In this document: positions 125 to 18,929 of the stretch, in pieces
Position numbering within the stretch: the first letter of the stretch is position 1
How the letters are laid out: every line of letters starts with the position of its first letter
NCBI GenBank assembly: GCA_001799195.1
Contig: MGSU01000031.1
Location: forward strand, 1-18,929
From: Deltaproteobacteria bacterium RIFOXYA12_FULL_61_11
GTDB lineage: Bacteria > Bdellovibrionota_F > JAHFAK01 > YA12-FULL-61-11
Direction: 5' to 3'
DNA: 18,929 nt
Program-made: the position numbers and the translations under genes
The notes under the pieces: model-generated
Told to the model about the DNA's origin: nothing
Database searches by the model: none
Seen by the model: the letters and a program-made list of their open reading frames with translations, nothing else

Positions 125-1240
125 ATGTTAGGCATCCAACAACCCCCCACGCCAGATGCAGGCATGAGTGAGCATAGATTGACCATCCCTCAGGACTTGG
201 ACACGGAGAACCTCGAACGGACCGTGGCGGGTCTCTCGGCTCAGATCGGCACCGATGAGGAACCGCTCCTGTTCGACCTCGGCGAACTCCAGGAGGTCAC
301 CCCCTTCACGGTGACCGCCCTGCTCGCGCTGCTCGAACGCACTCGTTCCCTCGGCCGTTCGTACCGGATCGAGGGCGGCAATGCCCTGGTCTGGAACAAG
401 CTCCACGGTTACAACATCGAGCGCACCTATCTCGACCCCAGGAAACGGCAGCGCCCAAGTTTTCTCGAGCACTTCGGAGAACGGTCCTTCGCCGCCTTCG
501 AGCGAGGGCTCTACTTCTGTGCCTTCCAGGTCGAAGTTCTTACCGGCTTGCCCCGGTACCTCTTCCGTCCCATGGGACTGAAGGGCTCGGTGCTCATCTC
601 CCAACTCAAGCAGATCGGCTCAGACTCTTTGCCGATCGTGGCCCTGCTCTCCTTCCTGGTCGGTCTGACCCTGGCCCTCCAATCGGCCAACCAACTCAGA
701 CAGTTCGGCGCTAACGTCTTCATCGCGGACCTCATTGCCATCGGGTTGACGCGGGAGATGGCCCCCTTGATGATCGGTATCCTCCTCTCCGGACGCACCG
801 GAGCCGCAATCACCTCGGAGATTGCGACCATGGTGATCACCGAAGAGATGGACGCCCTGCGAGGCATGGCCATCGAGCCGTTGCGCTTCGTCATCCTGCC
901 GAAATTCCTCGCGCTGGTCATCTCCCAACCACTCTTGACCATGTTGGCCAATCTGATGGGGGTCCTGGGCGGAGGCTTGGTCGGTCTGTTCTGGCTCGAT
1001 CTGCCCTTGCAAACCTTTTTCCAGCGGGCCCTGGCCGCCGTGACCCTCGGAGACCTCATGAGTGGGCTGATGAAGGCCACGGTCTTCGCCTGGATCATCG
1101 TCTCGATCGGAGTATATAAAGGACTCAACGTCGGCAAGGGATCGGAGGCGGTTGGAGTGGCTACTACTTCCTCGGTGGTGTCGTCCCTCTTCGCCATCAT
1201 CATCACGGACTGTATTTTCTCCTTCTTCTTCTATTTCTGA
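125..1240 (+). CDS. mlaE: MlaE-type ABC permease with N-terminal STAS domain
   Basis: Inner-membrane permease of an MCE/Mla phospholipid transport system, expected to work with the ATPase and MCE protein encoded next. Residues about 15-105 look like a STAS domain (LLFDLGELQEVTPFTVTALL). Residues about 150-371 are the MlaE permease fold, with several hydrophobic helices and the family's cytoplasmic coupling segment around EEMDALRGMAIEPLRFV. The total of 371 residues fits STAS-MlaE fusions; E. coli MlaE lacks the fused domain and uses separate MlaB. The start is uncertain: neither ATG 125 nor ATG 164 has a good ribosome-binding site, and ATG 164 (MSEHRLTIP) would remove a Pro-rich N terminus and may be the true start. 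First gene of a plus-strand operon. The family call is firm; which lipid is moved, and in which direction, cannot be read from sequence. Confidence 0.93.
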   Translation: MLGIQQPPTPDAGMSEHRLTIPQDLDTENLERTVAGLSAQIGTDEEPLLFDLGELQEVTPFTVTALLALLERTRSLGRSYRIEGGNALVWNKLHGYNIERTYLDPRKRQRPSFLEHFGERSFAAFERGLYFCAFQVEVLTGLPRYLFRPMGLKGSVLISQLKQIGSDSLPIVALLSFLVGLTLALQSANQLRQFGANVFIADLIAIGLTREMAPLMIGILLSGRTGAAITSEIATMVITEEMDALRGMAIEPLRFVILPKFLALVISQPLLTMLANLMGVLGGGLVGLFWLDLPLQTFFQRALAAVTLGDLMSGLMKATVFAWIIVSIGVYKGLNVGKGSEAVGVATTSSVVSSLFAIIITDCIFSFFFYF

Positions 1241-1309
1241 GCGAGGAGGATGCTTGTATTTCGGACCCCGCTGACTATCATGGAGCCTTATCACTCCGGA
1301 GAAACGAGC

Positions 1310-2101
1310 GTGGAGCAACGAGAGTCGGACATCCTCATCAGGGTCGAGGGGATCACCTCTTCCTATGGCGAGCGGCGTATTCTGGACGGGGTCTCGCTCG
1401 GGGTATCCGCAGGTCAGATCACGGTCATCCTGGGCGGCAGCGGTTGCGGTAAAACGACACTGCTCAAGAACATGCTCGGTTTCCTGGTCCCAAACGAGGG
1501 TAGGATCGTGTACTTCGGCAAAGAAGTACGCGGCGATGCGCCTGCCATGGTCGAGGTACTCCGCCAATTCGGCATCGTTTTCCAGAACGGCGCGCTGATC
1601 GGCTCGATGACCGTCAAAGAGAACGTCGAACTGCCCCTGATCATGCACACCTCGATCTCTCCCGCGCTGCGCGATCATCTCGTGCGCGTCACCCTGGCCC
1701 GGGTCGCCATGTCCCACGCCATTGAGCTCTACCCCTCGGAACTCTCCGGGGGTATGAAGAAGCGAGCGGCCATAGCCCGGGCCATGGTCCTCGGCCCCCG
1801 GGTGCTTTTTTGCGATGAACCCGCAGCGGGGCTCGACCCGATCACCGCGGCTAGTCTGGACAGTCTGTTGCTCGATCTTCGCGACAGTCTGGGCATGACC
1901 ATCGTTATCGTCACCCACGAACTGGAAAGCATCCGCACGATCGCCAATAGGGTAGTCATGCTCGAGTCGGGGAAAGTGATCTTTGAAGGTCCTCTCGCAG
2001 ACGCTCTGGTCTCCGAGCATCCCACCGTTGCAGGTTTCTTCGCCCGCCGCCACGGTAGCGAGGGCGGGGTCGACAATTTCTTCGAGGCACCCCAGCCATG
2101 A
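1310..2101 (+). CDS. mlaF: MlaF-type ABC transporter ATP-binding protein
   Basis: ATPase that should power the MlaE permease at the cytoplasmic face. All ABC motifs are visible: Walker A GGSGCGKTT, Q-loop FQNG, signature LSGGMKKRAAIARA, Walker B VLFCDEPAAGLDP, and H-loop VTHEL. The reading frame is open from ATG 1250, but GAGGAGG abuts that ATG with no spacing. ATG 1280 has no ribosome-binding site. GTG 1310 has GGAG eight bases upstream and gives an N terminus of MlaF-like length, so it is chosen here; starting at 1250 would add 20 residues. The gap to mlaE is 69 bases with this start, 9 with the longer one. The stop overlaps the mlaD start by 4 bases (ATGA), which implies translational coupling. 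Confidence 0.93.
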   Translation: MEQRESDILIRVEGITSSYGERRILDGVSLGVSAGQITVILGGSGCGKTTLLKNMLGFLVPNEGRIVYFGKEVRGDAPAMVEVLRQFGIVFQNGALIGSMTVKENVELPLIMHTSISPALRDHLVRVTLARVAMSHAIELYPSELSGGMKKRAAIARAMVLGPRVLFCDEPAAGLDPITAASLDSLLLDLRDSLGMTIVIVTHELESIRTIANRVVMLESGKVIFEGPLADALVSEHPTVAGFFARRHGSEGGVDNFFEAPQP

Positions 2102-3129
2102 TCGACCGCAAGACCAAGCTCCAGGTCGCCATTTTTCTGCTCGGTACCATCGGGTTGCTCGTCGTCACCGTCGTCCTCCTGGTCGGAATGAAGTTCTTCG
2201 AAAAGAAAGACCTTTATAACATTCGGTACAAGAACGTCTCGATCAGCGGTTTGCACGAGGGCTCCACAGTGCAGTTCCGCGGCGTGAAGGTAGGGGTGAT
2301 CGAAGAGGTGTATATAGACCCCAAAGACGTCGAGAGCGTCATCGTCGCCATCTCGCTCAAACGCGGCACGCCCGTGAAGCAGGATACCGAGGCAGCGATC
2401 ACCAACATGGGGATCACCGGCCTCAAGTTCATTGAACTGGTCAAGGGAACCAATGCCTCAAAACACTTAAAACCAGGTAGTTACATCCTCGCGGGCGCCT
2501 CCTTGATGGATGAGTTGACCGACAAGGCCGAGGTCATCAGTTCCCAGGTCCAGCAGGTCCTGGCGAACCTGATTCTCTTCACCGGGGACGAGAATCGCGA
2601 GCGTTTCACCCAACTCGTCGACAACATCGACGGGGTTGTGGTGACCCTGCACGAGGTGCTCGACGAGAATCGCGGCAGTCTCACCGCGATGATGCGCAAC
2701 CTCGATCAGATGACCACGGAACTCCGCACCGTGGCTGGCAATCTGGAAGGGACCATGCGGCATTTCCGCCAACTCGTCACCCGCGAGGACCTCCAGACTT
2801 TGCTCGGGGAGATCCAGACCACGCTGGCCCACACCCGAGCCACCTTGGACGGCCTGGGGGTCGACCAACTGGTTCTCGACGTACGGCGGAACCTCGAGGG
2901 TATGAGTCTGCCCACCATGACCAAACGCATCGACGACCTCCTCACCCGTACCGACAAGACCGTCGAACACCTCGACGTCACCGTGCAGCGCAGCCGGGAG
3001 GATGTCTACGAATCCCTGGACTACCTACGAGAAGCCCTGGAGAACTTCCGGGACTTCACCCGCACCATCGGCGAGGATCCCTCGCTCTTGTTCCGTTCGA
3101 AAAACAAGGAAGAGAGGCGCCTCGATTGA
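2098..3129 (+). CDS. mlaD: MlaD-type MCE-domain lipid transport protein
   Basis: Membrane-anchored periplasmic substrate-binding ring protein of the Mla/MCE transporter. One N-terminal membrane helix (about residues 8-30) precedes a single MCE domain (about 38-125) containing GLHEGSTVQFRGVKVGVIEEV and NMGITGLKFIEL, both typical of MCE proteins. Residues about 140-343 are long, polar and heptad-like, probably helical. E. coli MlaD is only about 183 residues, so this is the longer form with a helical C-terminal extension, as in many MCE proteins that may reach further across the periplasm. ATGA overlap with mlaF upstream; TTGA overlap with the lipoprotein gene downstream. The extension's role is inference. 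Confidence 0.92.
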   Translation: MIDRKTKLQVAIFLLGTIGLLVVTVVLLVGMKFFEKKDLYNIRYKNVSISGLHEGSTVQFRGVKVGVIEEVYIDPKDVESVIVAISLKRGTPVKQDTEAAITNMGITGLKFIELVKGTNASKHLKPGSYILAGASLMDELTDKAEVISSQVQQVLANLILFTGDENRERFTQLVDNIDGVVVTLHEVLDENRGSLTAMMRNLDQMTTELRTVAGNLEGTMRHFRQLVTREDLQTLLGEIQTTLAHTRATLDGLGVDQLVLDVRRNLEGMSLPTMTKRIDDLLTRTDKTVEHLDVTVQRSREDVYESLDYLREALENFRDFTRTIGEDPSLLFRSKNKEERRLD

Positions 3130-3737
3130 ACCGAACGATTCTACCCTTGTGTATGGCCGCGCTCCTGGTCGGGTGTCTGTTCTCCACACCGGTCCAGCAG
3201 CACTACTACATGATTCATTACCTTCCCTTGGTGAAGCCCGCGAAAATCACCTATCCCTATACAGTCCGGGTCCAGGACCTCAAACTCGACGAAGCCTACA
3301 GGCGCCCACAGCTCGCCTACCGTTTCAACCCTTACGAAATCAAATACTACGGTTATCAACTCTGGGGGGTTCGTCCCGACAAGAGTATCACCGATCTGCT
3401 GGTCAATCACCTCGGTCAGCGGAGCGTGTTTCAAGAGGTGCTCAAGGAGTATGCGGACAAACGTCCGGACTTCGAGATCAGCGGTAACCTCCTTTCTCTC
3501 GAGGAGTTCGACAACGGTCAGGAGCGTTACGCTCACCTGGCCCTCCGTTTTCGGCTGACCCGACACCAAGACCGAAAAGTACTCTTAACTCACCATTTCG
3601 ATGGCCGGCAGATGGTCTACCAACAGGAGACGACCTTCCTGGTCAAGACCCTCAGCGAAATGCTCGAGAAGCAAATCGATGAGTTCATCATCAAGATCGA
3701 GGAGTTCCTGGCTCGGGAGGCCGGCGATGCGCACTAG
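3126..3737 (+). CDS. PqiC-like ABC-type transport auxiliary lipoprotein
   Basis: Predicted outer-membrane lipoprotein of the COG3218/PqiC type that accompanies MCE transporters. The start is TTG 3126, overlapping the mlaD stop as TTGA. It gives MNRTILPLCMAALLVGC with lipobox LVGC and lipidated Cys17. The mature part begins with the YYMIHYLP stretch usual near the N terminus of the family. It has the characteristic segment RRPQLAYRFNPYEIKYYGYQLW, in which a base-bound Tyr-Tyr motif precedes a conserved Trp, followed by the family-style helical segment ITDLLVNHLGQRSVFQEV. The length of 203 residues is normal. Its stop overlaps the next gene by 11 bases. By analogy with PqiC it may dock the MCE assembly at the outer membrane. 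The family call is good, the docking role inferred. Confidence 0.82.
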   Translation: MNRTILPLCMAALLVGCLFSTPVQQHYYMIHYLPLVKPAKITYPYTVRVQDLKLDEAYRRPQLAYRFNPYEIKYYGYQLWGVRPDKSITDLLVNHLGQRSVFQEVLKEYADKRPDFEISGNLLSLEEFDNGQERYAHLALRFRLTRHQDRKVLLTHHFDGRQMVYQQETTFLVKTLSEMLEKQIDEFIIKIEEFLAREAGDAH

Positions 3738-13842: not shown

Positions 13843-16017
13843 TCAGGGGCAGGCGCGACCGGCAGTATCGGTCGTGCGACCGCAGCCGCACTCGGTCGGA
13901 CACCAACCGCCGTCGGTGACGGCCTGGCCACCATAGCAGCAGAACAATCCGCTCGGACACCCCAATTCGAGGTTCGGTCCTGGTTCGGTGGAGTATTCGA
14001 TCCCTTGGCCGGCGGCCGTGGTGCAATACGTACGACAGGGACGCAGGGTGCCATTACGCAGAGGATCGCAGGTCATGTCCGATCCGGGTGCGGCTCCGGC
14101 ACAACGGAAACCAGCGTGGATTAACGCACTCTCCGCACTCAGAATTCGACGGTCCGGGAAGGTGGCTGCGGTCCAGTCTCCTCCACGGAGCACCCGCATA
14201 CCTCCCTCGACATCGGGTCCCACGACCAGATCGGTGCAGTCCGTGCTCGGGTCAAGACACTGCTCGAGGGCCTGGGTATCATCGAGATCGAGGGTCCATT
14301 CCCATATCGTGGTTTCAGCGACACTACCGGTAGAGGGCAAGAATGCGGTTTTTTTCTGCGTTACGGCGAGGCGCCATTGCAAATCCGAGGGCAACTCGCC
14401 TCCGAGAAACCTGCAATAATCCCGGGCGCCATGCCAGGTAACGCCGAACATCGGTTTCGCAACAGTTTCGGGAGAAACCAGAGTGACCGTTCCATCGACC
14501 TGCAATTGCACTTGGTCGTTCGCGACAGCGGTCAGATAGGGATTATCGGCAGCATTTCTCGACCCCTTCAATCGCAGGAATTCGACGAACTCCCAGACTT
14601 CGACGAGACGCTCCTGCAGGAAGAAAGCATTTCCCGAAATCGCACGTGTCTCGTCTCCGAACTGGTAATCGATCGAACCGGCGGCAACACTTGTCCAGAG
14701 CTTGGGCTGGGGGGCGAGGTACGGTAGGGTAGCGTTGGGGGGAGGGGGATCGACCGGTTCCTCGATACTCGGATCAGGAGGGGAAGGCTCAACGGTCGAC
14801 GGAGGGAGCTGCCCTTCCGGAGTCTCTCCAACGACGGTGACGGTCAGGGTTTTTCGAGTCGCACGCTGTGGATTGCCACCATCGAGCACGGTGATGGTCA
14901 ACCGGTGCGCATCGAGAGCAGCGTCGGTAGGGAAGATGACGTGCTGGAAGCTCTGATAGGCACCTGGGGGAAGCCCCTCGACAAAAGCGACCAGGAAGTC
15001 GCCGTCCGGATCTTCGGCCTCGATTTGGATGGATCCACCCCGGGGGATTGAACGGTCTTGAGTTTGTATGACCGGAGCCCGGTTGCCGTTGGGGTTGTTC
15101 AGGTCGAGGTGATTACGGGCAAAGACGAGGGGAATCTGGTTGAGACGCAAGGTAAAATAATCGGAGGCAGTCACAGCAAAGAGGGAAAAATCGAAATCCA
15201 GTCGTTGAGCCTTGCCTTCGAGTGGACACGTCACCGCAAGTAAATCCGTAGTATCCAGCCGGGCCATGGAGGGAAAGTGGCAGCGGACGCTGGCCGAATA
15301 GGCACCATCGATGCGGCCGAGCAGCAGCGGTACGACCACGTGGTCGGGGACCTGGAAAAGGTTTTTTAGCGCCGGCGCGAAAACAGCGTCGCCGAGGTCC
15401 GGTGGGGCTAGCCATAGACTCGAGGGAAGGGCGTTGGAAGGAAGGGCGTTCGAAGGCAAGGCTTTCTGAGTGGTTGCCGGGTCAGGGAGGTGGCTCGAGG
15501 GTAAGGCATTGGAAGGAATAGCATTGGAGGGAATTGCCTGTTGAGGCATATCGGCTTCGGAGAGCAGGCTCGCCGGCCAGGTATTCGAGGGTATCGCGTT
15601 GGAAGGCAAGGCTCCGAGGGGAATGTGGTGGGTTAGTCCGGCCTCGGAAAAATCGAGGGGCTGGTCCTCTGCCACGATCGAGGCATGAATAATATAAATG
15701 GGTTCAGCCGCGGTGAAGGCTTCGAGGCCATACCCGAGTTCCTCGGCGTTGTCGGAGAATTTTTGATAGTCTTTCCGGGTAATAGTAATGGATGGCATGC
15801 GGGCCATTTCGCTGCCGTTGAGGATCAGCTTCGATCCGCCTTCCAATTCTACCTCGATGGCACTACCGCTGCGGCCGTCGGGATTCAAAACCGGGCGGCT
15901 ATGTACCGAGATCGACATCGGGACCTGGGTATCGTCCTTCTCGGGAGCGATGGTACAGCCCAGGACCATGAGCAGGAGCACAAGGGTTCCTCCGGCGGGG
16001 AAGCGTTGGTCGGTCAT
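13843..16017 (-). CDS. Mosaic lipoprotein: ALPSN repeats, cadherin-like and FGE-sulfatase-like domains
   Basis: A 724-residue surface or periplasmic lipoprotein. ATG 16017 has AGAGG upstream and gives a signal ending LMVLGC (Cys21). In order: an N-terminal domain (about 30-135); a period-5 ALPSN/AIPSN repeat (136-200); a beta domain with Cys246 and Cys264 (about 205-300); a cadherin/Ig-like domain (about 312-397, EAEDPDGD and LTITVLDGG); a Pro-rich linker (about 400-437); an FGE-sulfatase (SUMF1) fold (about 460-640: VTWHGARDYCRFLGGELPSD, WEWTLD, RVLRGGDW, AGFRCAG); and a Cys-rich tail (650-724, ten Cys including a CC pair). The SUMF1 part has TAATFPDRR where true formylglycine-generating enzymes carry their catalytic Cys pair, so it is probably a binding or scaffold domain. 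Residues 30-300 are paralogous to the protein at 18059. Confidence 0.88.
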   Translation of the reverse strand: MTDQRFPAGGTLVLLLMVLGCTIAPEKDDTQVPMSISVHSRPVLNPDGRSGSAIEVELEGGSKLILNGSEMARMPSITITRKDYQKFSDNAEELGYGLEAFTAAEPIYIIHASIVAEDQPLDFSEAGLTHHIPLGALPSNAIPSNTWPASLLSEADMPQQAIPSNAIPSNALPSSHLPDPATTQKALPSNALPSNALPSSLWLAPPDLGDAVFAPALKNLFQVPDHVVVPLLLGRIDGAYSASVRCHFPSMARLDTTDLLAVTCPLEGKAQRLDFDFSLFAVTASDYFTLRLNQIPLVFARNHLDLNNPNGNRAPVIQTQDRSIPRGGSIQIEAEDPDGDFLVAFVEGLPPGAYQSFQHVIFPTDAALDAHRLTITVLDGGNPQRATRKTLTVTVVGETPEGQLPPSTVEPSPPDPSIEEPVDPPPPNATLPYLAPQPKLWTSVAAGSIDYQFGDETRAISGNAFFLQERLVEVWEFVEFLRLKGSRNAADNPYLTAVANDQVQLQVDGTVTLVSPETVAKPMFGVTWHGARDYCRFLGGELPSDLQWRLAVTQKKTAFLPSTGSVAETTIWEWTLDLDDTQALEQCLDPSTDCTDLVVGPDVEGGMRVLRGGDWTAATFPDRRILSAESALIHAGFRCAGAAPGSDMTCDPLRNGTLRPCRTYCTTAAGQGIEYSTEPGPNLELGCPSGLFCCYGGQAVTDGGWCPTECGCGRTTDTAGRACP
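15418..15612 (-). repeat. Period-5 ALPSN/AIPSN protein repeat
   Basis: Residues 136-200 of the 724-residue lipoprotein: 13 pentapeptide slots in one unbroken register. Clear units start at 136, 141, 161, 166, 171, 186, 191 and 196 (A-L/I-P-S-N/S). Degenerate slots (TWPAS, LLSEA, DMPQQ, HLPDP, ATTQK) keep the five-residue phase. At DNA level this is a degenerate 15-base periodicity. Confidence 0.9.
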
Positions 16018-16325
16018 GGTCTCAACCTCTGTGATCTGACGGCAGCACCATACCATAAGCAGGGATTCCGGCCAAGGCCGGTTGGCGGTTGCGGGGGCAC
16101 GTCTTTAGGATACCCGAGCCCCAAGATACCTTTGGAGAACTCGGACGGAAACTCCGTCCTCCTCCTTGCCGGTCCACGACGCGGTGCTCTGAGAATAAAA
16201 TCTATCGAGTACGCGGCAATACGGGAAATATACATGATCCATTGTGTCATTTTCCTTGTGAAAACCGACTCGATATGCTAGAGGCAGACAGTACGGTGGT
16301 CGACCATTACATTGGGGGTACCGAT
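16018..16325. other. Divergent intergenic region
   Basis: 308 bases between the minus-strand lipoprotein (start 16017) and the plus-strand tandem-repeat gene (start 16326), so it must hold both promoters. I see no clear -35/-10 pair with good spacing; AT-richer candidates are TATACA near 16230 and TATGCT near 16274. A 14-base inverted repeat, CCGGCC-AA-GGCCGG, lies at 16068-16081. No convincing gene is seen here. Confidence 0.5.
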
Positions 16326-17360
16326 ATGTTGCGGTTGTTCGTCCTCTTCGCTTTGTTCGGCTTCGTCTTCACTATCTCAGCTACTGCCGAGGAGCATGTT
16401 CTCGGTAAGGTTACCGGAAAAGAGATCGATGGTTTCACCTCTGATCATGGGTTTGTCGCTCGAGTTGGGGATCACATCGCTTTAGGTTTCCTCGATGAAG
16501 CTACCGGAATCAGCACCTTGCGTATTTGGAAACATACTCAGGAGATCAGTGCGCACTTCGCGCGGAGTGAGGAAGACGGCGGCATCGGCGGGACCATCGC
16601 TCACGAGAAAGATGGGGACAAATTCGAAACGCGCTTGGCCTTTTTGGGTATCAACAAAGAAACCAAAGTTTTGCTCTTCAAGGTCAACGATGAAGCCATG
16701 CAGGTGAGCCTCGCGGCCGAGAAGTTCGAGAACGGTCATTACCTCAACCCGACCTATACTGCCCGGTTGGGAGCCCGCGAAATCGTTTTTCGGACCGAGG
16801 GTGAAGCTTGTATGGGTTTGGCCATACACACCATTTTCATGATCACGGGTGCGATCCTGCACGCCGAAGGTGCGGAGCTCGAAGAAGAACACCCCATTGG
16901 AAAGGTCAGCGGCAAGGAGGTCGAGGGGTATACCTATGACCACGGTTTTGCCGTCAGAGTTGGCGACCACATCGCCTTCGGTTTCCTGGACGAAGCCACG
17001 GGTGTCAGTACCCTGCGCATCTGGAAGCATACCCAGGAAATCACCACCCGCTTCGCCCGTAGTGAAGAGGATGGGATCCTCGGCGGTGTCATCTCCCACG
17101 AGAAGGACGGGGTGAAGTTCGAGACCCGCCTGAGCTTCCTCGGCATCAATAAAGAGACGAAGGTCCTGCTCTTCAAGGTCAACGAAGACCAGATGGAAGC
17201 GAGTCTCGCGGCCGAGAAATTCGAGAACGGGCACTACCTCAACCCGGTTTACACCGCTCGGCTGGGAGCCCGCGAGATATCCTTCCGCGTCGAAGGTGAG
17301 GCCTGTATGGGTCTCGCAATACACACCATTTTCATGATGACCGGCGCTGTTCTGCATTAA
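16326..17360 (+). CDS. Exported protein of two tandem 158-residue repeats
   Basis: The start is ATG 16326 (MLRLFVLFALFGFVFTISAT), with GGGGG upstream; the open frame from 16089 is rejected because the signal peptide begins here, with cleavage near residue 21 before EEH. The 344-residue product is two copies of one domain (residues 22-179 and 187-344) joined by AEGAELE. They align without gaps at about 80% identity. Invariant parts include RVGDHIA, GFLDEATG, STLRIWKHTQEI, FARSEEDG, KFETRL, FLGINKETKVLLFKVN, SLAAEKFENGHYLNP, YTARLGAREI, and EGEACMGLAIHTIFM. Each copy has one Cys. No family recognised. Periplasmic or secreted location is inferred. The rhodanese gene follows after 45 bases, probably in one operon. 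Confidence 0.85.
   Translation: MLRLFVLFALFGFVFTISATAEEHVLGKVTGKEIDGFTSDHGFVARVGDHIALGFLDEATGISTLRIWKHTQEISAHFARSEEDGGIGGTIAHEKDGDKFETRLAFLGINKETKVLLFKVNDEAMQVSLAAEKFENGHYLNPTYTARLGAREIVFRTEGEACMGLAIHTIFMITGAILHAEGAELEEEHPIGKVSGKEVEGYTYDHGFAVRVGDHIAFGFLDEATGVSTLRIWKHTQEITTRFARSEEDGILGGVISHEKDGVKFETRLSFLGINKETKVLLFKVNEDQMEASLAAEKFENGHYLNPVYTARLGAREISFRVEGEACMGLAIHTIFMMTGAVLH
16389..16862 (+). repeat. Intragenic tandem repeat, copy 1
   Basis: Encodes residues 22-179. Copy 2 lies 495 bases downstream. By hand alignment about 30 of 158 residues differ, mostly conservatively, and many synonymous codons differ as well. This is therefore not a recent duplication or assembly artefact. Confidence 0.9.
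16884..17357 (+). repeat. Intragenic tandem repeat, copy 2
   Basis: Encodes residues 187-344, with the same length as copy 1 and no gaps. Third codon positions are more GC-rich than in copy 1 (for example CTGCGCATCTGGAAG against TTGCGTATTTGGAAA), so the two halves have drifted separately under protein-level constraint. Confidence 0.9.
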
Positions 17361-17405
17361 CCACTAGGAATAAACACACTTTCAATGAACTGATGAGGCA
17401 ACCCC

Positions 17406-17858
17406 ATGCTCTCTCGCAAGGCTGCATTACTCCTCATACTAGCGGCATGCTGTACTCTGTTTGGGGCCGAAGTCCTGGCTCGACCGATGCGGGCGGAATG
17501 CACCGGACCCGCGGCGCCGGGCGAGCAGTTCTTAGGTCAGGTCACTCCTGCCGAAGCGAACACCCTGCTCAAGGTCTTCGGACAGAGCAAGCGTTTCCTG
17601 CTGCTCGACGTGCGCACCGAAAGCGAATACGAAGCTGGTCATTTGGCTGGCAGCAGGCAGCTCGATTTCTATGCACCGGATTTCCCCAAATTGCTCGCGG
17701 CAATACCCCGGGACGTGGTTATTCTGGTCTATTGCGCTTCCGGCAACCGCAGTAAACAAACCATGACCATGCTCGGCTCACTCTGTTTCCCCGTGGTCCT
17801 CGACCTCCAAGGGGGGGTGAAACGCTGGGTTGGCGAGGGATATCCACTCGTACAATGA
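17406..17858 (+). CDS. Exported rhodanese-domain protein
   Basis: A single-domain rhodanese of 150 residues with an N-terminal export signal. ATG 17406 has TGAGG eight bases upstream. The rhodanese features are LLLDVRTESEYEAGHLAGS (residues 65-83), the active-site loop C110-ASGNRS, and the terminal DLQGGVKRWVGEGYPLV. The active Cys is present, so sulfur-transfer or sulfide/thiol-binding activity is possible. The signal MLSRKAALLLILAAC contains an LAAC lipobox (Cys15), so it may be a lipoprotein; cleavage by signal peptidase I after EVLA is the alternative. It sits 45 bases after the tandem-repeat exported protein, which has one Cys per repeat and could be a partner (speculative). Confidence 0.87.
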   Translation: MLSRKAALLLILAACCTLFGAEVLARPMRAECTGPAAPGEQFLGQVTPAEANTLLKVFGQSKRFLLLDVRTESEYEAGHLAGSRQLDFYAPDFPKLLAAIPRDVVILVYCASGNRSKQTMTMLGSLCFPVVLDLQGGVKRWVGEGYPLVQ

Positions 17859-17991
17859 AGGCCGCCTGAACTCACCCTCCAAAGCTTGAACCATCCTTCC
17901 CCGCCTCGACGCTCAACCCTGCTTCTTGCGCGGACCTCCTTTGCACGGGTTCCTGCCGGTCGAACGGATCAGGACTGTGCGCGAGTCCCAG

Positions 17992-18020
17992 TTGCATCGA
18001 TCGTGAAGTGCTGGTATACC
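17992..18020 (+). promoter_or_regulatory. Candidate sigma70-type promoter for the gene at 18059
   Basis: TTGCAT at 17992-17997, a 17-base spacer, and TATACC at 18015-18020. It lies in the 200-base gap after the rhodanese gene, predicting a short leader of about 30 bases before ATG 18059. Confidence 0.4.
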
Positions 18021-18058
18021 TGTGTAACATGCAGTTATTTTCGTGAGGGGGCAAGGCC

Positions 18059-18929
18059 ATGACGAAGGCCATCATCATTAGTATTGTTCTCTGGCTCACC
18101 CTGTTCTTGGGGTGCAGTTCCTCGGGGGAAAAAGAGAATGAAGAAGAAACTCTCATCTCCGGCGATCCCTCGGACGATCGGACTTCGGATGTCCCCGCGC
18201 AACAGGTCGAGGAACAACCCGTCGAAACTGCCTATCGGGTGGATACTGCCAAGGGGCTGCTTGTCTTCGAACTCGGCCCCAAGGCTGCTACGGTCACCCT
18301 GCCTCTGAAAGCAATAGCCGATCCCGAAACAGTACGGGTCAACCAACTCACCCGCGCCACCTATACGGCCAACCTGGATCGCCTGGGTCTTCCGCTGGAA
18401 ATGCCGGTCGCTGCAACGGTTTTCGGAGCTGTCCAGCTCGAACTCTCCGCCAAAGCTACCGACTTTTCCAAGGGTGATCTCGACATTTCCTTGCCTGCCG
18501 GGGCCCTACCGGCCAACGGCCTTCCCTCCAATGCGATGCCCGCTTCGGCAATCCCCGCCAACGCCTTACCTTCCTCTGCCATACCGGCCAATGCCTTGCC
18601 TTCCTCTGCCTTACCCTCGGCAGTGGTTCCAGAAGGCTCCTCGCCGGCCAGCGCTTTCGATCAAGCCCTCTTCCTGGTCGCTCCTCGGTTCTTGTATGCA
18701 GAACCGGTCCAGGAAACCCCGAAGGCTGACCAGGTCGTGGTCTTCGCCCTGATGACGCTCTCGACCATCGAGAACGAACACTATGTCCAACATTGTACTA
18801 TTACCTCCGCGCTCAGCCGGGCCACGGCCATCGGAATCGACCTCCGTTGCTCGATCGAGGGGAGCTTTCCGCACAGCGAAATCAATCTGGTCGTCGGGGC
18901 CTGCAAGGCCGAGGACTATTATAAAGTCC
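18059..18929 (+). CDS. ALPSN-repeat lipoprotein (3' end outside window)
   Basis: The start is ATG 18059 with GAGGGG upstream; the frame is open for 290 codons to the window edge. The signal MTKAIIISIVLWLTLFLGC has lipobox LFLGC (Cys19), then a charged Ser/Glu linker, an N-terminal domain (about 58-147), a ten-unit period-5 repeat (149-198), and a beta domain with Cys246, Cys264 and Cys282. The order matches residues 30-300 of the 724-residue lipoprotein. DFSKGDLDISLPAGALPAN parallels DFSEAGLTHHIPLGALPSN. After the repeats, DQVVV, paired Cys, CSIEG and a final AEDYY correspond to DHVVV, paired Cys, CPLEG and ASDYF. The two are paralogues; whether this one also carries downstream domains is unknown because it is cut. 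Confidence 0.85.
   Translation, partial: MTKAIIISIVLWLTLFLGCSSSGEKENEEETLISGDPSDDRTSDVPAQQVEEQPVETAYRVDTAKGLLVFELGPKAATVTLPLKAIADPETVRVNQLTRATYTANLDRLGLPLEMPVAATVFGAVQLELSAKATDFSKGDLDISLPAGALPANGLPSNAMPASAIPANALPSSAIPANALPSSALPSAVVPEGSSPASAFDQALFLVAPRFLYAEPVQETPKADQVVVFALMTLSTIENEHYVQHCTITSALSRATAIGIDLRCSIEGSFPHSEINLVVGACKAEDYYKV
18503..18652 (+). repeat. Period-5 ALPAN/ALPSS protein repeat
   Basis: Residues 149-198: ALPAN, GLPSN, AMPAS, AIPAN, ALPSS, AIPAN, ALPSS, ALPSA, then the weaker VVPEG and SSPAS, ten slots with Pro at position 3 of each. The third to eighth units alternate N-ending and S-ending forms. Confidence 0.9.

Follow-up and report, generated by a model that had tools for sequence, protein, structure and literature searches.

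The window, meaning the whole 18,929-nucleotide stretch analysed, carries two lipoprotein genes, A and B, each of which encodes an array of in-phase A-(L/I)-P-(S/A)-(N/S) pentapeptides. The features of the two genes are as follows.

13843-16056, minus strand: protein A, a lipoprotein of 724-737 amino acids, start at 16056 or 16017 (open reading frame list; candidate lipobox LMVLGC; PF03781)
15628-15957, minus strand: N-terminal beta-rich segment of A, from the lipobox Cys to slot 0 (hhalign 93% against the profile of the other paralogues; AlphaFold strands)
15418-15627, minus strand: pentad array of A, slot 0 (HIPLG) plus 13 slots, 8 canonical units
15097-15417, minus strand: Cys-pair beta-rich segment of A, following the array, with cap LWL (hhalign 98.5%)
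14827-15084, minus strand: cadherin/He_PIG-like beta domain of A (matches of profile A2)
14341-14631, minus strand: FGE-sulfatase-like C-terminal domain of A (PF03781, E 1.7e-11, best stretch 463-559)
18059-18929, plus strand: protein B, a lipoprotein, 5' part only, continuing on contig C179
18113-18487, plus strand: N-terminal beta-rich segment of B (hhalign 92%)
18488-18667, plus strand: pentad array of B, 12 slots, 8 canonical
18668-18929, plus strand: Cys-pair segment of B, cut by the contig end (hhalign 96.6%; profile match E 1.4e-19)

The observation made in an earlier sequence-only reading holds, with the corrections that A lies on the minus strand and spans 13843-16056, and that B is not complete. 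The window's last bases (18900-18929) are the first 30 bases of contig C179, an exact overlap across which the reading frame of B continues, and the window contains just the 5' part of this gene. The continuation matches the family profile from model position 69 onward and contains a cadherin-like part and a weak GH5-like match (PF00150, E 4.6e-4). In A, the two cysteines of the Cys-pair segment are encoded at 15280-15282 and 15226-15228 (minus strand), and positions 93-209 of profile A2 match cadherin/He_PIG-like domains of other genomes and also protocadherins.

The same reading had claimed that both lipoproteins carry the pentad repeat, and this is confirmed by nine in-phase units in each array, compared to a maximum of three in 20,000 shuffles of the residues. 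Its count of 13 slots holds for A, where slot 0 comes in addition, while B has 12 slots rather than 10. Within array A, the non-canonical stretches LLSEADMPQQ and HLPDPATTQK stay in phase.

The earlier reading also described the segments on either side of the array as the same domains in A and B. Compared directly, the flanks of A and B gave hhalign probabilities of 0.7% and 3.5%, which are not significant. However, when each was compared with a profile of the other paralogues, the N-terminal segment matched at 93% (A) and 92% (B) and the Cys-pair segment at 98.5% (A) and 96.6% (B), which places A and B in the same two segment families and establishes the homology for this main subfamily. Both cysteines of the Cys-pair segment are invariant in 12 of 12 members. 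Neither flanking segment nor the array has a Pfam match, and a profile search of 192 genomes did not find the Cys-pair segment outside its own genome, matches elsewhere covering the cadherin part. Asked whether the flanks always bracket the repeat, the data say no: at least eight members in the genome, as well as exported proteins of other phyla, carry the array elsewhere. The two domains are not constant brackets, given the other contexts of C229, C87, C205, C75, C314, C136, C29 and C309. In C229 and C87, the array lies beside CarboxypepD_reg domains, and the resemblance of GALAGQLVV and GALIGQMTV to the sibling CarboxypepD_reg domains hinted at insertion after strand A of the first of them; this idea was dropped, as the scores were weak. 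A placement of the C309 array as a loop of a fibronectin III host domain likewise had no Pfam support once the array was left out.

Searching the own genome (4.64 Mb in 342 contigs, 87% complete) with A, B and a DNA pattern, we found 22 proteins that have three or more in-phase units, and four further relatives, three with the array decayed or nearly absent (C337, C53 and C67) and one cut at its 5' end (C210). The DNA pattern matched 90 times, compared to once for the backwards control. The suspected expanding lipoprotein family is thus an expanded one, with 22 array proteins and four relatives in a single genome. Judged by pattern and by eye, A and B have a candidate lipobox, as does almost every member whose N-terminus is intact. 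The array lies close to the membrane anchor in some two dozen lipoproteins that are otherwise unlike each other. Their C-terminal parts vary (FGE-sulfatase-like, Lcl_C, LamG, weak GH5-like, Ig/cadherin and TTR-like), with an FGE-type domain in five members and an Lcl_C-type domain in two; Pfam matches among the members comprise FGE-sulfatase, Lcl_C, LamG, CarboxypepD_reg, FG-GAP, CARDB, Big and He_PIG. For C313, the start is missing from the open frame. C171 (L040:1604-3257) is frameshifted between the array and the Cys-pair domain, as a result of either an assembly error or pseudogene formation.

The length of the array region is nearly constant in the main subfamily. The measured region starts at slot 0, which follows the strand motif GLxLxIP, and ends at an aromatic cap, (F/W/Y)xL. 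We compared paralogues rather than orthologues, and the test is weakest in its anchors, which were set manually with a single motif rule. Across 12 main-family paralogues with between 1 and 12 canonical units, the region measures 61.8 ± 6.5 residues; its coefficient of variation (0.10) is close to that of the flanking domain segment (0.09), and that of the canonical content is 0.39. Random pairings of the canonical and non-canonical parts were as tight in 0 of 20,000 trials (3 of 20,000 without the two hardest cases). Members on other base domains have regions of roughly 25-81 residues, as read off the sequences. In A, C85 and C14, pentads without Pro stand in for units in phase, and external proteins have inserts that are multiples of five in 14 of 24 cases (p = 4e-5). 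Region totals are divisible by five in 7 of the 12 members, which favours a set length. Inserts without an in-phase Pro in the own genome show no enrichment of multiples of five (5 of 22, p = 0.46), and inserts of 4, 6, 11, 16, 18 and 19 residues also occur in the family. The earlier proposal that degenerate slots keep the phase and that length is constrained therefore stands for the phase in A and for total length in the main subfamily, but not for the phase of single inserts across the family.

The repeat is old and has been selected as protein. The 164 canonical units, from 26 proteins, represent 13 peptide types encoded by 154 distinct DNA 15-mers, and between adjacent pentads of identical peptide sequence 58.5% of codons differ, where 66.9% would be expected if the codons were independent. 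Synonymous differences that are near saturation, together with peptide words that are almost invariant, indicate an array kept at the protein level over a long time. The prevailing words are AIPSN/AIPAN and ALPAS/ALPSS, in which positions 2 and 5 are coupled: units with Ile at position 2 tend to have Asn at position 5, and those with Leu tend to have Ser or Ala (36/6 vs 29/102, p = 1.6e-13, in the own genome; 36/1 vs 1/80, p = 5e-28, in five proteins from Acidimicrobiales, Chloroflexi and other Actinomycetota). Because units are not independent samples, we also shuffled within proteins; concordant units numbered 137 compared to a maximum of 131 in 20,000 shuffles for the own genome, and 125 compared to a maximum of 109 in 20,000 shuffles for the other phyla. 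The coupling survives although neutral drift at saturated sites should break it, which hints at packing or specific recognition. Slot-specific order of AIPSN and ALPAS is weak, and the unit type in a given slot is not conserved. As a separate observation, four of the five Gly residues at unit position 1 fall in slot 2, in the divergent members C85, C313, C102 and B, a hint of slot-specific constraint.

Outside this genome, at least five relatives look real among the matches listed (L202, L130, L118, L170 and L113). These carriers are unrelated exported proteins from Acidimicrobiales, Chloroflexi and other Actinomycetota, and their genomes have one or two array proteins each. Most of the pattern matches listed from public collections seem to be accidental or to stem from tandemly repeated DNA, in frames that are short or unrelated. 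The array pattern is very rare in the related genomes sampled: within the order of the Acidimicrobiales member, 3 of 397 genomes have it, and one of these looks real; AIPSNAIPSN was absent from the 400 genomes searched in the phylum of the Chloroflexi member and from the viral contigs; and the pattern is absent from G001, the sole genome of the same class among the 40 nearest genomes searched. In L118:1449-4730 (Actinomycetota MAG32), runs of ALPSS are split by helical-looking stretches without the Pro, many of them 5, 10, 15 or 20 residues long. No Pfam, NCBIfam or PDB relative of the array was found, nor did a literature search turn up the repeat words; the pentad repeat is a real, previously undescribed building block.

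In an AlphaFold model of A built from a two-row alignment, the N-terminal segment forms beta strands, mostly at pLDDT 51-76, and parts of the Cys-pair segment reach 41-71. The array has a pLDDT of about 25 and no modelled strands, which proves neither order nor disorder, given that the neighbouring cadherin-like domain, surely folded, scores only about 30; the regular rod or solenoid suggested in the earlier reading thereby stays a conjecture. The pLDDT of a model of L202 from Acidimicrobiales is 34. A Foldseek search yielded no strong match for the base and nothing at E < 0.3. With a ZU5-like or related beta-sandwich as the candidate fold of the base, VIA-align placed phosphorylase N-domains, CBM3a and AnkG at Z scores of 4.5-5.9, which, being under 8, are too low to mean a relative; the rows at Z 5-6 span model residues 8-277, taking in the N-terminal and Cys-pair segments together and omitting the array as a loop, a hint that the two segments might align as one sandwich.

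Our leading, though tentative, reading is that the array is a proline-pentad arm of set length extruded from the beta-sandwich base of a lineage-expanded group of display lipoproteins. Each protein would start with a lipid anchor and an acidic linker and continue with a beta-rich base, which would carry the pentad stretch of some 60-65 residues between the conserved strand GLxLxIP and the aromatic cap (F/W/Y)xL. The two flanks probably form a single beta-sandwich, out of which the array would protrude as an arm, possibly exposed at the surface with a role in display or spacing. The exchange of pentads at unchanged total length suggests that this arm is not a free linker but at least partly ordered. 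What is displayed would be the C-terminal parts (FGE-like, Lcl_C, LamG, glycosidase-like and Ig), and the lectin-, FGE- and glycosidase-like parts likely face the environment. Counting against this reading are the low pLDDT of the array, the negative Foldseek search, the VIA-align Z values under 8, the manual anchors and paralogue-based comparison of the length test, the different region lengths on other base domains and the non-conserved unit type per slot.

Nearly as likely, ranking just below the arm, is a flexible hydrophobic loop or spacer of proline pentads, similar to pertactin R1 or elastin, that would provide reach and mobility with no fixed structure. Consistent with this, the uncharged array has a Pro every fifth residue, ALPAS has a hydropathy of +1.0 compared to +1.2 for VPGVG, the pLDDT of the array is low, and paralogues differ in unit number. 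The R1 repeat of Bordetella pertactin, (GGAVP)n, shares the A-hydrophobic-P-x-x scheme and lies in a large, proline-rich surface-protein loop of variable repeat number (PMC8931430). However, pertactin is a beta-helix autotransporter with Gly spacers, whereas we find a lipoprotein with a beta-rich base, coupled words, a set length and almost no Gly, and phmmer similarity to the pertactin passenger is at chance level (E 1.1). Elastin-like VPGXG also is uncharged with a hydrophobic residue and then Pro every five residues, but the arrays described here are Ala-rich, coupled at positions 2 and 5, short and inside a folded protein. The disorder of elastin has been ascribed to Pro and Gly combined (PMC5703643); with Pro at 20% and Gly in only 7 of the 164 units, our arrays do not have the high combined content of elastomeric sequences. 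Neither the position 2/5 coupling nor the constant total length would be expected of a flexible spacer.

A quadrilateral beta-helix like that of pentapeptide repeat proteins, with Pro at a turn corner and about three coils of four pentads, is unlikely. The period of five fits, 60-65 residues would make about three coils, Pro is tolerated at the second position of beta-turns, and pentads without Pro replace units in phase in three members. However, insert lengths are often not multiples of five, and no strands were modelled in the array. Members of PF00805 share the five-residue period, but the pentads here contain Pro. With the published consensus (A/C/S/V/T/L/I)(D/N/S/K/E/I/R)(L/F)(S/T/R/E/Q/K/V/D)(G/D/E/N/R/Q/K) (PMC8145042), membership requires at least eight contiguous fitting pentads, which the arrays do not show in any register: between 10% and 42% of positions fit, with 26% in the sole register with a central Leu. 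The array proteins also have no Pfam pentapeptide match at E <= 0.1, in agreement with the initial view that the repeat is distinct from classic pentapeptide-repeat proteins.

Less probable again is a tag for sorting, processing or glycosylation, for instance one in which a sortase-like enzyme reads LP(S/A)(N/S)A. The words resemble LPxTG/LPNTA-type signals and are very uniform across unrelated exported proteins, but the arrays lie on the N-terminal side rather than forming a C-terminal signal. The four other array-bearing genomes have sortases; PF04203 was not found in the 87% complete own genome, for which we reject a sortase signal. A recent, functionless tandem expansion of DNA, which the tandem layout and variable unit number could suggest, is very improbable, as it is contradicted by near-saturated synonymous differences in almost invariant words, and recent slippage is rejected on the same-peptide codon divergence.

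Returning to an ordered array, we consider it possible, though doubtful, that the pentads constitute a new fold in which two internally coupled words, AIP(S/A)N and ALP(S/A)S, can replace each other. Exported proteins of several phyla would use this proline-pentad fold, and one lineage would have expanded it to some two dozen display lipoproteins. If ordered, the array would be a new short-period repeat architecture with Pro, usually a breaker, in every unit; if disordered, it would be a bacterial counterpart to elastin or the pertactin loop, with an unexplained sequence coupling. In both cases, the family marks a group of surface-type lipoproteins that is still uncharted, in a lineage with almost no sampling.

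FGE-sulfatase/Lcl_C lipoproteins are of a type that can be the target of a diversity-generating retroelement. The five FGE-type and two Lcl_C-type members share their C-terminal domains with that type, but no RVT_1 reverse transcriptase was found in the 87% complete assembly, where the positive controls were detected, and we rejected this possibility. Elsewhere in the window, a small exported protein (16300-17360, plus strand) sits between A and B and consists of two near-identical halves of about 150 amino acids with the pattern EEH..GKV.GKE..G....HGF..RVGDHIA.GFLDEATG... Positions 125-3737 (plus strand) carry MlaE/MlaF/MlaD-like lipid-transport genes, then a lipoprotein gene, an arrangement that, judged from sequence, would fit an outer membrane.
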